Assembly: GCA_001828595.1 (NCBI GenBank)
Contig: MHZA01000059.1
Span: 1-32,809 of the forward strand
Length of the DNA stretch: 32,809 nt
Origin: Planctomycetes bacterium RIFCSPLOWO2_12_FULL_40_19
Lineage (GTDB): Bacteria; Planctomycetota; Brocadiia; Brocadiales; Scalinduaceae
Direction: 5' to 3'
Positions 652-32,809 of this stretch are shown piece by piece; position 1 is the stretch's first letter, and the number at the start of each line of letters is the position of its first letter. Below the pieces are notes generated by a model. It did not search any database and was not told where the DNA came from. It saw only the letters and a list, made by a program, of their open reading frames with translations. The position numbers and the translations under genes are program-made.

Positions 652-1069
652 CTTGACTTAATTATACCAAACCATTCTCATAGCAAAAGTCGACTCGCTC
701 AATAGCTTATGGCAATTCAAACATTATGTAATTAATGAGGCTGACTTGAAGTGTTATGTGAAATGGAGCAGCAAATATTATTAAATTAGTAGCGGAAACC
801 TTTTAGGTTTCCATCTCCTCGTGCTGACTGACAATTTTAGATCAATGTTTACATCGAGTTGATCCCATGACTGAGGGAGGGTTGCCCGCCCCAGCCCGAC
901 CCGTCCCCGCCAGAAAGACGTGTCGGGCTGGCGAACGGATTCATCCGGGCGGGCATGATCGTTCTGGCGGGTGCCAAGTCTTTCGGGCAGGAAGATCTCT
1001 GCTACAAACAAAACAACCAAAGTATTCTGTACTCATTAAAGCCATAGCATATACCAGGATTCTTAGTCA
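652..1069. other. Intergenic region with a GC-rich palindromic repeat
   Basis: No convincing gene lies here. The left half is ordinary AT-rich spacer. The centre (about 882-990) is a GC-rich palindromic repeat listed separately. Open frames across it on both strands are products of the repeat's base composition. Confidence 0.6.
882..990. repeat. GC-rich dispersed palindromic repeat, copy 1
   Basis: This stretch is far richer in G and C than its surroundings and is built from overlapping inverted repeats: CCCGCCAGAA at 907-916 against TTCTGGCGGG at 962-971, AGCCCGAC at 892-899 against GTCGGGCT at 922-929, and GCCCGCC near 884 against GGCGGGC near 948. A 16-base word (TGTCGGGCTGGCGAAC, 921-936) recurs inverted at 28907-28922, and GTTCTGGCGGG (961) recurs at 28938. 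It is therefore a member of a dispersed family, not a single terminator. Confidence 0.75.
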
Positions 1070-11210: not shown

Positions 11211-11267
11211 GTAGGGTGTATTGTCATGCCTAAGGCAGATTCGCCGTGGCGAACAATACGCCCCTAC
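11211..11267. repeat. Hairpin repeat with GTAGGG ends
   Basis: The ends form an imperfect inverted repeat (GTAGGGTGTATTGT against ACAATACGCCCCTAC) and the centre is a second palindrome, TCGCC-GT-GGCGA. A 23-base stretch (11233-11255) recurs exactly at 31060-31082, so this is one copy of a mobile-like dispersed hairpin and not just the uppP terminator, although it may serve as one. Confidence 0.72.
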
Positions 11268-28892: not shown

Positions 28893-28967
28893 AGCGCCTA
28901 CCCCAGTTCGCCAGCCCGACAAACTGCCTGAAAGCCGTTCTGGCGGGAGCAGGCGAGTAGACGCTTA
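28893..28967. repeat. GC-rich dispersed palindromic repeat, copy between the VWA genes
   Basis: The ends are inverted repeats, AAGCGCCTAC (28893-28902) and GTAGACGCTT (28958-28967), and the interior carries two words shared with copy 1 (the 16-base word at 28907-28922, inverted, and GTTCTGGCGGG at 28938). It fills nearly all of the 102-base gap between the two VWA genes. Confidence 0.78.
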
Positions 28968-28981
28968 ATTTCGTAAGACCA

Positions 28982-30970
28982 TCAGGCAGTACCTGCCCTC
29001 AATTTCTTATAATACAACAGCCATTCAAGCAAAAGAATAAATGGCACAAGCAGGAGAAGGTACTTGCCGAACTCTGTTTTTTTGTCTTTTATGAGTGTAA
29101 GCGCTTCCTTTTCTTCAAATTTGAGTTCTGTATCATCCGTTAATTCCGGCATAATCCTGGACTCCTCTTCATCAAAAAGATTTGCCACAAATCTATCTTT
29201 GAAATCAGCGCCGGAAATCTCATATTCTCCAATGTAATCTATCTTGTTAAACACAAAAGGGTCTTCAGCATCGCCTTTGACATCATATTTCAGTATCTCT
29301 CGCTGAGGATTTAATATTTGAATATTATCTTTTAAGACGAAGTTCGGTCTGTATTGTCCGCCGGTTAATAACTTATTATGATCTTCCACTTCATACGGAT
29401 TCAACCATTGAATTATATTAAGCGTTATAATCAGTATCCGCAGATTCTCCGATTTTGAGAAATCAAAATCACTCAGGTCAAAACCCAGTGTTACTACCTT
29501 CTTTCCTGCATACTGACCGGCATAGGCAATAGGAGAATCTTTCAAACCATCCGATACCTTTATTAAAGCTGTTGACCAATCCGGAGGTTCCATTGTGAGT
29601 GAGCTCCTTATGTTTAAATCATCCAGATTATGTAAATGCATCATAGTAGGATGTGTGTTGTCCCAGTCGAGTATCTCTACATTTGATACCATGCCGTATT
29701 TTGGAAACAGTATACTGCTGAAATTATTACTTTCTTTCCCGCCTGCCCGCCCGTCTACGCCGTTCGGACGGGTACCTATTCGGGCAGGTACGCCTTTTGC
29801 CTGCGAATTCAAGGCGGGCAGATACGGAATGATATATAATGAATTTATGCCGGGACTTTCATCAGGAATAAATTCGTGGAAAATTGCAACATCATAATCC
29901 TTTACAGCTTCGGGTTCATACCCGGATATGTCAATCCTGGTTAATTTTATCCGACTGGTACCTTGCTCTATCTTCTCCAGTTCATCCTGTAACCTGTAAT
30001 CGTTTGAAACCAATAAAATGTTGATGGGTTTTATTTCATTTATTATTGCGTATGCAGTATTATCAACAGAAAGAAAATCATCCGTCTCTATCCTGGCTTT
30101 TAAGATGCCGGATGTGCTGAGGTTTTTCACCCTTACTGTCTTCTGCTTATCACCTGCTAACTCTAATTCTTCTTCCTTTATGATTTCATCGTTCAGGAAA
30201 ACACTTAATTTAACATCTTTGTTATCATCCGAATAATTTTTGATAGTCACATAAACCTCACGCTCTGTGTAATCTTTAAACATATCCTGATATACGTCCA
30301 GCGACGAAATGGCAACGTTTGCAGATTTCTCCCCGTATCTGATAAATTTAATGTTTCCCGGTTTTTGTCTGGTAATGTTTATCGAAGATGGCGACTGGTC
30401 AGTTAACACATACATCTCGCCTCTTTCAACGGTTTTCAGGAAAGATATGCCGAGGACTACGCCTTCATCCAGATTTGTCCCTGTATCCCTGGGTATTAAG
30501 TCGTTAATTGTTTTGTTTAACTTGTGCTTGTCTTCAGTAAAGTTACAGGCAATCCTGGAAGAATAATCTGCGGAAATAACCATCATCTTATCCCATTGCT
30601 TCAGCTTATCAACCATTTTAAGCGCTTGAGACCTTGCCTGGTCAAAACGTGACCCTTTATCTTCAGAAGTTTGCATACTTGCGGAGGAGTCAATGACGAG
30701 GATGACATTCTTTCCTGAAATATTTATTATGTTGGACTTGAGGTATGGGTGTGCAAGAAAAAAAATCAGAATCAGTATCAGAATTATTTGTAGTAAAAAA
30801 AGCAAATCTATCCTGAACAACCTGCTCCGCACAACATCTTCTTTTAGCACACTCCAGGGTATGATACTCGGCACAGCAACTATATATTTCTTTTTACTGA
30901 GGAAATATATCAGTACCACCAGTGCAATTAACGCTAAATATCCAAATGCCAGTAAATTTATAAAACCCAT
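28982..30970 (-). CDS. BatA-like membrane VWA protein
   Basis: A 662-residue protein with the BatA-type N-terminus: a helix at 6-25, LFRIDLLFLLQIILILILIFFLAHPYL as a second helix (51-77), then a VWA domain starting at VILVIDSSASM with MIDAS residues Asp94, Ser96, Ser98 and the TGT near 155. A CARDB-like beta domain (210-300) and a GATase-like Rossmann segment (315-500) follow; the protein ends with a helix (LLLLVPFILLLEWLLYY) and a basic tail. It is probably the partner of the downstream double-VWA protein. A repeat element is read in frame at about residues 382-410, adding some 28 Gly, Pro, Ala and Arg-rich residues. Such genes usually follow moxR and a DUF58 gene, but the upstream side here holds repeats and a different block. 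Confidence 0.88.
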   Translation of the reverse strand: MGFINLLAFGYLALIALVVLIYFLSKKKYIVAVPSIIPWSVLKEDVVRSRLFRIDLLFLLQIILILILIFFLAHPYLKSNIINISGKNVILVIDSSASMQTSEDKGSRFDQARSQALKMVDKLKQWDKMMVISADYSSRIACNFTEDKHKLNKTINDLIPRDTGTNLDEGVVLGISFLKTVERGEMYVLTDQSPSSINITRQKPGNIKFIRYGEKSANVAISSLDVYQDMFKDYTEREVYVTIKNYSDDNKDVKLSVFLNDEIIKEEELELAGDKQKTVRVKNLSTSGILKARIETDDFLSVDNTAYAIINEIKPINILLVSNDYRLQDELEKIEQGTSRIKLTRIDISGYEPEAVKDYDVAIFHEFIPDESPGINSLYIIPYLPALNSQAKGVPARIGTRPNGVDGRAGGKESNNFSSILFPKYGMVSNVEILDWDNTHPTMMHLHNLDDLNIRSSLTMEPPDWSTALIKVSDGLKDSPIAYAGQYAGKKVVTLGFDLSDFDFSKSENLRILIITLNIIQWLNPYEVEDHNKLLTGGQYRPNFVLKDNIQILNPQREILKYDVKGDAEDPFVFNKIDYIGEYEISGADFKDRFVANLFDEEESRIMPELTDDTELKFEEKEALTLIKDKKTEFGKYLLLLVPFILLLEWLLYYKKLRAGTA
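29738..29822. repeat. Palindromic repeat element inside the BatA-like coding region, read in frame
   Basis: Nested inverted repeats: CCCGCCT (29738-29744) with AGGCGGG (29812-29818), CCTGCCCG (29742-29749) with CGGGCAGG (29781-29788), and CCCGTC (29750-29755) with GACGGG (29767-29772). CGCCTGCCCGCC also occurs at about 31107. On the coding strand the element gives PALNSQAKGVPARIGTRPNG and then VDGRAGGK, unlike the sequence on either side, and keeps the frame open. Confidence 0.75.
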
Positions 30971-31006: not shown

Positions 31007-31140
31007 CACTACGGAGTGCATTGACCGTGTCAATGCTGTTATGCCACAGGCCGTGCCTGAGGCAGATTCGCCGTGGCGAACAGATTTATTGTGGTAACCA
31101 TCGTCACGCCTGCCCGCCAAGCGTTCGGGCGGGGACGATG
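31007..31140. repeat. Hairpin repeats upstream of the VWA locus
   Basis: Two elements lie side by side. The first (about 31041-31100) contains the 23-base word shared exactly with the hairpin at 11233-11255. The second (31105-31135) is GCCTGCCCGCC-AAGC-GTTCGGGCGGGG, a strong hairpin sharing CGCCTGCCCGCC with the element inside the BatA-like gene. Confidence 0.68.
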
Positions 31141-31163: not shown

Positions 31164-31469
31164 CAACTTTGAAATTCCTATACATTAAATTAGGTTGGGT
31201 TTTAAAAGGCAAAAACCCAATAGTTCGATAAACTCATTATGCTGAGCTTGTCGAAGCACTACTTAGCCATTCTCTGTCATTCCCGCCCGCCAGAATGAGT
31301 ATCGGGCTGGCAATCTGTTGAGCCTGCCTGTGCCAATCACGGCAGACAGGCGGGAATCTAGAATTATCATTACAAGGACAATTAGACTCCCATTCCCCGA
31401 TCTGGATCGAGGACAGGTTTCATGGGAATGACATAAGGCAACATTGAAATTCCTATATAATTAAATTAG
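31164..31469. repeat. Direct repeats flanking a palindrome-rich segment
   Basis: A roughly 28-base sequence, CAACTTTGAAATTCCTATA then CATTAAATTAG (31164-31192), returns with few changes at 31438-31469. Between the copies are a 9-bp TTGGGTTTT/AAAACCCAA hairpin (31195-31220), a TTCGATAAACTC...GCTTGTCGAA element (31224-31258), and a CATTCCCGCC...GGCGGGAATC palindrome (31279-31360), then an imperfect CCCAT...ATGGG-type element to about 31433. The segment looks like nested repeat insertions. Confidence 0.6.
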
Positions 31470-31654: not shown

Positions 31655-31867
31655 ATGCCGCCAGGTCTCAAGGCGTTGAATCTATCGTACATTCAGCATA
31701 TCTTGGACCGCTATGCAGCTCCCGGGTTGTCCGGTTGCGTTCGCTTCTTGGTTCAAAGGATGCCCTTGCGATGGAGAAAGAAGGATCTTTATCTACAAAC
31801 TGGCGATCTGTTTGTGATCGCTCAGAAAATTGAGGAACAAAAAGGTGGCGAAGGAGTTTCCAGGTAA
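31655..31867 (+). CDS. Small hypothetical protein, 70 aa (uncertain)
   Basis: An ATG frame directly after the candidate promoter. The product begins MPPGLKALNLSYIQHILDRY and ends in a charged stretch (QKIEEQKGGEGVSR); I do not recognise it. It has only AGG about 10 bases upstream. Its 3' end overlaps the start of the next frame by 23 bases, which would allow coupled translation. It could be a true small gene, the tail of a broken gene, or chance in this GC-richer block. Confidence 0.3.
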   Translation: MPPGLKALNLSYIQHILDRYAAPGLSGCVRFLVQRMPLRWRKKDLYLQTGDLFVIAQKIEEQKGGEGVSR

Positions 31868-32809
31868 AAATAGTCTGTGTCTATGTGGTAGTGGGAAGAA
31901 GTATAAGCACTGTTGCTGGTTGAAGCGCGAGGGACAGCAGCCTGCTGTAGCGATGCGCTTGGGTAGTCCACGTTTCACGGCAGCGTATTGGATGATTCTC
32001 GATTATCTCGTCGTGCCTGCTGGCATTGTGTGGTTGTCGTTTGAGCCGAATTATGCTCACGGGTTCATAGACTACTTTGAAGCGGGTCAGTACCTGGCGC
32101 CAATCAATGGGATTTTTCATGGCGAAATTCCTTATCGGGATAGCTATACCGCATTTGGTCCGTTGTTTCTGTATGTTCCCGCCGCCTGTATGGCACTGTT
32201 CGGAAAGACGCTTGCTACGTTGATCGCGTACTTCCATTTCGCATGGATCTTTAGCATGGTAGTCGTGTATCTAGTCGGGTGTTTGGCATGCCGCACTCGA
32301 TTGTTCCGGTACGCCATTCCCCTGGTGACTCTGGTTGAGGTGTTCCATCCGTTCTGGTCATCTCGATGGGGGGCGGCGCGCGTCGGAGTGGGACTGGCGA
32401 TGCTCGCGGGCTTGATCCAGTATGTCAGAACTGGAAATGCGCGAATCCTCCTATGGGCAGGTATCGTGTCTGGTTTGGGGCTATTGTACAGTACAGAGCT
32501 TGGCGTCTTGTCTGTGGTCTCCGCAGGAGCTTTGGTGTTGTGGATGTTGCTGCACAGACAGCGGACGATTCGTGGTATGTTGCGTGATGGCTGGTGGTAC
32601 GTGGGTGGTGTACTATTGATTTTGCTGCCGTTCGGGATGTACTTCGCCAGCAAAGGAGCGTTGATTCCGTATCTTCGTACCGCCCTCTGGGATATGCCTG
32701 TGCACCACATGTCGGTGTGGGCGCAGCCAAATACTCGTTCGTTCCTCGTTGAGTTCAGGGAAGCGTCTAATTTGTTCGTGTTTCTTCAAGGGGATACGTT
32801 CAAGATATA
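31845..32809 (+). CDS. SEC-C motif fused to a polytopic glycosyltransferase-like membrane protein, partial (runs off the right edge)
   Basis: An unbroken frame from GTG at 31845 to the window end, over 320 residues. Residues 9-24 are a SEC-C zinc motif, LCLCGSGKKYKHCC (CxC...CC), as at the end of SecA. From about residue 42 the protein is a multi-spanning membrane protein: helix YWMILDYLVVPAGIVWLSF, then a periplasmic loop with YFEAGQYLAPINGIFHGEIPYRDSYTAFGPLFLYV, then further helices. EAGxxLxxxxGxxPYRDxxxxxGPLF matches the first large loop of lipid-sugar-dependent membrane glycosyltransferases (GT39/GT87/PMT-like, GT-C fold). The GTG has GAGGA nine bases upstream. Local GC is clearly higher than in the rest of the window. 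The SEC-C plus GT-C arrangement is unusual; I found no frameshift that would explain it away. Confidence 0.68.
   Translation, partial: MAKEFPGKNSLCLCGSGKKYKHCCWLKREGQQPAVAMRLGSPRFTAAYWMILDYLVVPAGIVWLSFEPNYAHGFIDYFEAGQYLAPINGIFHGEIPYRDSYTAFGPLFLYVPAACMALFGKTLATLIAYFHFAWIFSMVVVYLVGCLACRTRLFRYAIPLVTLVEVFHPFWSSRWGAARVGVGLAMLAGLIQYVRTGNARILLWAGIVSGLGLLYSTELGVLSVVSAGALVLWMLLHRQRTIRGMLRDGWWYVGGVLLILLPFGMYFASKGALIPYLRTALWDMPVHHMSVWAQPNTRSFLVEFREASNLFVFLQGDTFKI

Follow-up and report, generated by a model that had tools for sequence, protein, structure and literature searches.

Short palindromic modules, probably mobile, inserted in coding frames of a Scalindua-like anammox bacterium and its close relatives

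The BatA-like gene and its insert

The window, meaning the whole 32,809-nucleotide stretch of DNA analysed here, is contig C59 of a MAG (genome G000; 2.12 Mb, 174 contigs). Features of interest are listed in Table 1. The gene under study encodes a protein with an N-terminal BatA domain, plus VWA. Its nearest public relatives are from 'Candidatus Brocadiaceae bacterium Hainich-H41-bin245-1' (93% aligned identity; hereafter G002) and Candidatus Scalindua. Hence, the genome comes from an anammox bacterium similar to Scalindua. An Rfam scan of the whole window returned tRNAs only, and no known RNA family covered the element. Separately, GC content rises to 0.49-0.57 over the last ~950 bases of the window (31850-32809), from ~0.32-0.47 directly before them, and AT skew is strongly negative there. 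This stretch resembles a membrane protein gene, is unlike the rest in character and may be foreign or the product of a misjoin.

Table 1. Coordinates of the BatA-like gene, its insert and related repeats in the window
Feature	Position	Strand	Basis
BatA-like VWA protein gene, host of the insertion	28982..30970	-	ORF of 662 aa; Pfam VWA_2, VWA, BatA
Insertion, 51-bp composite: 24-bp outer module A enclosing 27-bp module B	29738..29788	.	Empty-site comparison, G002/L031 and L032-L034
Outer module A, left arm CCCGCCTG	29738..29745	+	Query that collected 132 A-type copies
Inner module B CCCGCCCGTCTACGCCGTTCGGACGGG, adjoining left arm of A	29746..29772	+	A-only 24-bp copies elsewhere without B
Outer module A, loop TACCTATT and right arm CGGGCAGG	29773..29788	+	Loop recurs in most 51-bp copies
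Native coding flank, earlier taken as element	29789..29822	-	Gapless alignment to G002
Composite copy, same repeat vocabulary: C-type module 906-931 (CCCGCCAG..CGGGCTGG) and TTCGGGCAGG	891..991	.	
Intergenic C-type module CCAGCCCGAC..TTCTGGCGGG, between two VWA genes	28911..28947	.	
C-type module, 25 bp	31286..31310	.	

An earlier note, made from the window's sequence alone, had described a palindromic repeat within an uninterrupted coding frame. This was borne out. The same note placed an 85-bp element at 29738-29822, but 29789-29822 aligns to the sister genome, G002, without gaps and the inserted DNA is 51 bp long. Similarly, the ~28 added residues proposed (382-410) shrink to 17, namely residues 395-411 (PARIGTRPNGVDGRAGG, read on the minus strand); residues 382-394 (ALNSQAKGV...) are native because they too align to G002 with no gap. 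Two nested inverted repeats, rather than three, lie in the insert, with outer arms at 29738-29745 and 29781-29788, and inner arms at 29746-29753 and 29765-29772. The supposed third, extending to 29822, falls in the aligned flank, whose length is unchanged. Note that, within this flank, 29801-29822 has diverged from G002 into CTGCCCGCCTTGAATTCGCAGGC, at constant length and as if by templated mutation. The new sequence partly mimics the repeat and accounts for the supposed third pair.

Deleting 29738-29788 joins the flanks as GGCGTAAAAGAAAGTAATAA, which is identical to G002 minus a 24-bp insert of its own. The site in G002 reads GGCGTAAAAG[CCCGCCTGGACCTATTCGGGCAGG]AAAGTAATAA, where the bracketed central part is that insert. 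This 24-bp copy sits 4 bp from the G000 insertion point, in the opposite orientation. Since the two genomes give the same sequence once their own inserts are removed, the insertions are different and 4 bp apart. We infer that the G000 and G002 lineages took separate insertions, the 51 bp landing in G000 after the split. A single inversion was considered as the cause of the difference. However, the flanking AAAG lies on different sides in the two genomes, and inversion would yield CTTT; two insertions fit better. No target duplication was seen in this empty-site comparison.

The relatives lack the inserted residues, and no homologue shared them when the alignment proposed in the earlier note was run. 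Twelve other genomes of the family have a BatA-like ORF with neither the G000 nor the G002 insert. The ORF is 1935 nt, stop excluded, in seven of them (G001, G005, G009, G011, G012, G013 and G016), differs from this by small indels in G006, G007, G010, G014 and G015, and is 1959 nt in G002. The 51-bp BatA insertion itself is known from one MAG assembly. Folded as single-stranded DNA, the 51-mer outperforms 200 of 200 dinucleotide shuffles on both strands (z of -2.6 and -3.3). In the same test, isolated 24- and 27-bp modules formed weak hairpins, no better than their shuffles.

The repeat family and its copies within genes

The element is dispersed and shared with other repeats, as the earlier note had proposed, and searching the genome recovered many further copies. 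There were 51 BLAST matches in G000 (E<=0.1; up to 100% identity over 53 bp). The 10-mer TTCGGGCAGG occurs 146 times, compared with 3 for the reversed control. We read 96 clusters in G000, about 7 of them inside genes, and further in-gene copies were found in G001 and G002. The clusters consist of modules, 24-27 bp long, with imperfectly complementary 8-bp ends. Module A is 24 bp (CCCGCCTG-N8-CGGGCAGG); its commonest loop, TACCTATT, makes up the entire loop of 41 among 132 A-type copies. Module B is 27 bp (CCCGCCCG..CGGACGGG) and module C is 26-27 bp (CCAGCCCG..CTGGCGGG). Modules also nest. The 51-bp unit of the window has B directly behind the left arm of A; A also occurs within A at CCTA^TTCGGG, and C within B at CCCGTC^CG. 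Insertion of a 27-bp B-type module into an A-type copy is seen directly by comparing loci L030 and L150. A second dispersed repeat, TGCCTRAGGCAGATTCGCCGTGGCGAACA, is present in the window as two copies with 97% identity (11227-11255 and 31054-31082).

We searched this genome and 38 relatives, requiring a match at E<=0.001. Apart from this genome, 16 Scalinduaceae genomes were covered and 15 of them had a match (16 with this genome included); at the same threshold, 0 of 22 genomes from other Brocadiales families did. Copy numbers per genome are lower bounds, the census covering loci fetched around matches in MAG assemblies.

In total, we counted 14 in-gene insertion events, of unequal strength, with both BatA events, and AddA site 1 and its nested copy, each counted. 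In MurG, G000 and G002 share a 24-bp insert that 11 relatives lack. With this insert, the residues of which contain NRFKPARIGTGGK (e.g. PARIGTGG), the protein still passes the TIGR01133 equivalog cut-off. At AddA site 1, G002 has one 24-bp copy and G000 has a second 24 bp exactly within it (CCTA^TTCGGG); the other genomes compared have no copy there. AddA site 2 holds a near-consensus 24 bp in G001 and G002, and is empty, and scarless, in G000, G009 and G011. Possibly decayed copies occur there in four further genomes: those in G004, G010 and G012 are equal in length to the 24-bp copy, and that of G007 is longer and contains a nested, B-like part. The pattern (L155, L154, L240, L243, L244, L241) reflects either an old insertion, precisely lost, or repeated insertion at one site. 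The two genomes are reciprocal in AddB: G000 has 51 bp at GATCGTT^CTCACC, where G002 is empty, and G002 has 24 bp at CTTA^TAGAGA, where G000 is empty. Duplication of a TA target was rejected for the latter, as the empty G000 site, CTTATAGAGA, already carries both TA.

A family-4 glycosyltransferase (GT4) has a 135-bp composite in G000 and a clean empty site in G002. At the same position, G001 contains a different palindromic insert, CTGTCTGCCGTGCCGGCACAGGCAGG (L161), which suggests a further repeat family tolerated in coding sequence, and a hotspot for insertion. The L030 protein gained a 27-bp B-type module in G000, within an older insertion common to G002. Copies in an IS4 transposase, a histidine kinase and a sigma-54 response regulator of G002 were counted without empty-site comparison. 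The copy at the N-terminus of L093 is a weaker case, its G002 ortholog being cut by a contig end. We left out other N-terminal cases (L009, L023, L098, L114 and L200), where the element is probably upstream of the true start, and 10-bp matches within ORFs L065 and L094, which could arise by chance. We conclude, from these sequence comparisons, that genes of this anammox bacterium, or of its close relatives, have received the repeat a dozen times or more, by whole codons and with the gene still readable each time.

Reading frames, host proteins and target choice

Each of the 14 in-gene inserts has a length divisible by three and contains no stop. The probability that every length is a multiple of three by chance is about 0.07 (12 events). 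Alone, this is weak evidence because lengths of 24, 27 and 51 bp are common everywhere, including outside genes. Checking whether in-gene copies keep one reading frame, as the earlier note had envisaged, gave the opposite answer: five of the six frames are in use (-1, +3, +2, +1 and -2), and a single frame for the element was rejected. The consensus carries stops in the -2 frame; the in-gene copy read in that frame at L210 (DLPEWVPVR...) has lost them.

The host genes are under purifying selection. Between G000 and G002, dN/dS is 0.16 for BatA, 0.21 for MurG, 0.13 for GT4, 0.24 for both AddA and AddB, and 0.37 for L030. AlphaFold2 models place the BatA insert in a loop (residues 388-414; pLDDT<50) with well-predicted segments either side. 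The MurG insert is modelled, with moderate confidence (mean pLDDT 71), in a loop leading from helix 144-149 to strand 163-166. The predicted placement in loops agrees with tolerated surface additions. The inserted residues are presumably translated, and the insertions would be neutral for fitness.

Target choice is non-random and each insertion adds the module alone. Among 56 non-nested sites, 38 have T at position -2 (p=8e-9) and 34 have T at +1 (p=3e-6). Of 12 in-gene targets, 9 show C at -4 and 10 show T at -2, giving a loose CNTN^ preference. Exact empty sites, compared between sister genomes, revealed no target duplication. The IS200/IS605 family is not known to make target duplications. 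A short preferred target with no duplication agrees with single-strand transposition by Y1 (HUH) enzymes, as described for IS200/IS605 (PMC6006769).

Three Y1 genes in this genome, on contigs C18, C137 and C168, exceed the cut-off, two RAYT-like and one IS200 TnpA-like. Where a genome has no RAYT match, or a single weak one, it has 0-3 copies of the element and other genomes have 1-27 (p=0.006), where the counts are lower bounds and the association is confounded with general repeat richness. We considered the repeats flanking RAYT genes as a source of the element. Those examined are different repeats, of GTAG type where clear, rather than A modules, save one case in G009. A tally of flanks for 132 copies found no fixed GTAG or CGTC foot. 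The G009 exception (contig C7, L255) is a RAYT gene between 214-bp direct repeats, 97% identical, at 1246-1459 and 1981-2194. Each holds GTAG-type repeats and an A+B composite. The locus is possibly a REPtron that carries A+B modules along, and the modules may be hitchhiking. The mobilising enzyme is probably a Y1 transposase, judging from these gene and target patterns. That it is specifically a RAYT or the TnpA is a tentative assignment, to which we give somewhat less than even odds.

Explanations and known systems

We favour, at a probability of roughly 0.8, a family of short mobile palindromic modules that insert whole, without target duplication, and are translated in tolerant loops. Insertion, frame, nesting and empty sites are demonstrated by the comparisons above. 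Mechanistically, modules A, B and C would insert at loosely CNTN^ targets, each event adding the module only. The hairpin loops of older copies would often serve as targets, and the modules would therefore nest. Most modules have lengths divisible by three, and five of six frames lack stops. An insertion into a gene would therefore usually add a harmless, translated loop, rich in Pro, Gly and Arg. Such additions, of 8, 9 or 17 residues, would persist at surface loops that tolerate them. On this basis, one A+B composite would have landed in the disordered BatA loop after the split from G002. The modules would be mobilised in trans; the enzyme would be a Y1/HUH transposase, similar to IS200 or RAYT, that works on hairpins of single-stranded DNA.

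Short, GC-rich hairpins within genes are the right sort of object to go untranslated, either bypassed by the ribosome or cut from the RNA, and bypassing of inserted nucleotide blocks has been reported for mitochondrial genes of Magnusiomyces (PMC5009743). However, skipping does not need multiples of three, yet 14 of 14 lengths are, and the L210 copy, in a frame that should contain stops, has lost them. Furthermore, the Magnusiomyces blocks break the frame (PMC5009743) and the present inserts do not. We consider this very unlikely. An assembly artefact, resulting from repeat-driven misjoins in a fragmented MAG, is slightly less credible again. While there are 174 contigs, several ending at or near repeats, and runs of N at some loci, the insertions are exact, in frame and set between orthologous flanks; those in MurG and AddA recur in G002, a separate assembly. 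Least probable is expansion in situ, or low-complexity drift, of a variable loop that resembles the repeat by chance or convergence. The site is indeed a variable, disordered loop, with small indels in other genomes. Even so, the 51 bp are near-identical to dozens of dispersed copies, with the 10-mer excess noted above, and clean, nested 24-bp steps separate the sister genomes. The dispersed copies and exact empty sites refute drift.

A further proposal, that the modules are REP partners moved by resident RAYTs, is a narrower form of the mobile-module explanation, and its probability overlaps. The presence of two RAYTs, the low copy number of RAYT-poor genomes and the G009 RAYT flanked by A+B copies point this way, as does insertion at a short target with no duplication, which fits IS200/IS605 single-strand transposition (PMC6006769). 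Conversely, the modules have no fixed GTAG or CGTC foot and the repeats flanking RAYTs are different sequences, of GTAG type where clear. We regard this version as possible, at around one chance in three. Returning to mobile modules in general, a bolder and more doubtful version is a self-nesting anammox system, in which 24-27-bp modules, coding-compatible through their lengths and stop-poor frames, target hairpin loops, including their own, and can also be precisely lost, as may have happened at AddA site 2. If true, proteins would grow and shrink by whole-codon steps, 8-9 residues at a time, and a dedicated single-strand transposase, not one using GTAG tags, would be at work.

The earlier note considered a coding-tolerant repeat notable outside Rickettsiales. 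In-gene, in-frame REPs have been published for Verrucomicrobia, Thauera, Xanthomonas and others, often in recB or uvr genes (PMC3733652); hence, in-gene palindromes beyond Rickettsiales are not new as such. Searches of open-access papers found nothing relevant on palindromic repeats in Scalindua or anammox bacteria. As far as we found, what is new is the family in anammox Planctomycetota, its untagged modules, the stepwise nesting in AddA and the reciprocal exact empty sites. In-gene, in-frame palindromic elements are now extended to anammox Planctomycetota, with unusually clean comparative cases, including reciprocal empty sites and one insertion caught within another in AddA. Such cases make the movement of the elements, target use and protein tolerance testable. 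They also advise caution, as extra loops rich in Pro, Gly and Arg in Scalindua proteins may be derived from repeats rather than functional.

Several known systems are similar. GTAG/CGTC REPs, known from many phyla, are like our modules in being 20-40-bp palindromes in genes; clustered copies encode 20-82 residues and recBCD-type repair genes are often hit, as AddA and AddB are here (Di Nocera 2013, PMC3733652). Unlike those REPs, our modules have no fixed foot tetranucleotide, and the portions of PMC3733652 consulted do not describe insertion of one module into another with exact empty sites. REP/RAYT systems (REPtrons, REPINs) and IS200/IS605 TnpA resemble the present case in their short, imperfect, high-copy hairpins, Y1 genes, short target preference and lack of visible target duplication. 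Unlike REP/RAYT, the repeats flanking RAYTs here are another family. The MITEs ERIC, YPAL and Correia/NEMIS are likewise non-autonomous, and in-frame fusions of MITEs to genes are known in enterobacteria and Neisseria (PMC2229807). However, these are ~100-200 bp long and mostly have target duplications (PMC2229807); our modules are far shorter and have none. The Rickettsia palindromic elements (RPE-1 to RPE-7) are dispersed palindromes that lie in frame in many unrelated genes and are translated as extra residues; related species likewise carry different elements at, or close to, one site (PMC3767692; PMC2229807). As for RPEs, copies occur between and inside genes, the frame is preserved and homologues have empty sites. 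RPEs are ~100-150 bp and belong to Rickettsiales, while the modules are 24-27 bp (51-bp composites), nested, read in five frames and from Planctomycetota (Scalinduaceae). The RPE-like family proposed in the earlier note thus stands for in-frame insertion, additional in-gene copies and clean empty sites, but probably not for descent. The family works like an RPE, as a functional analogue, and is set apart by length and host.
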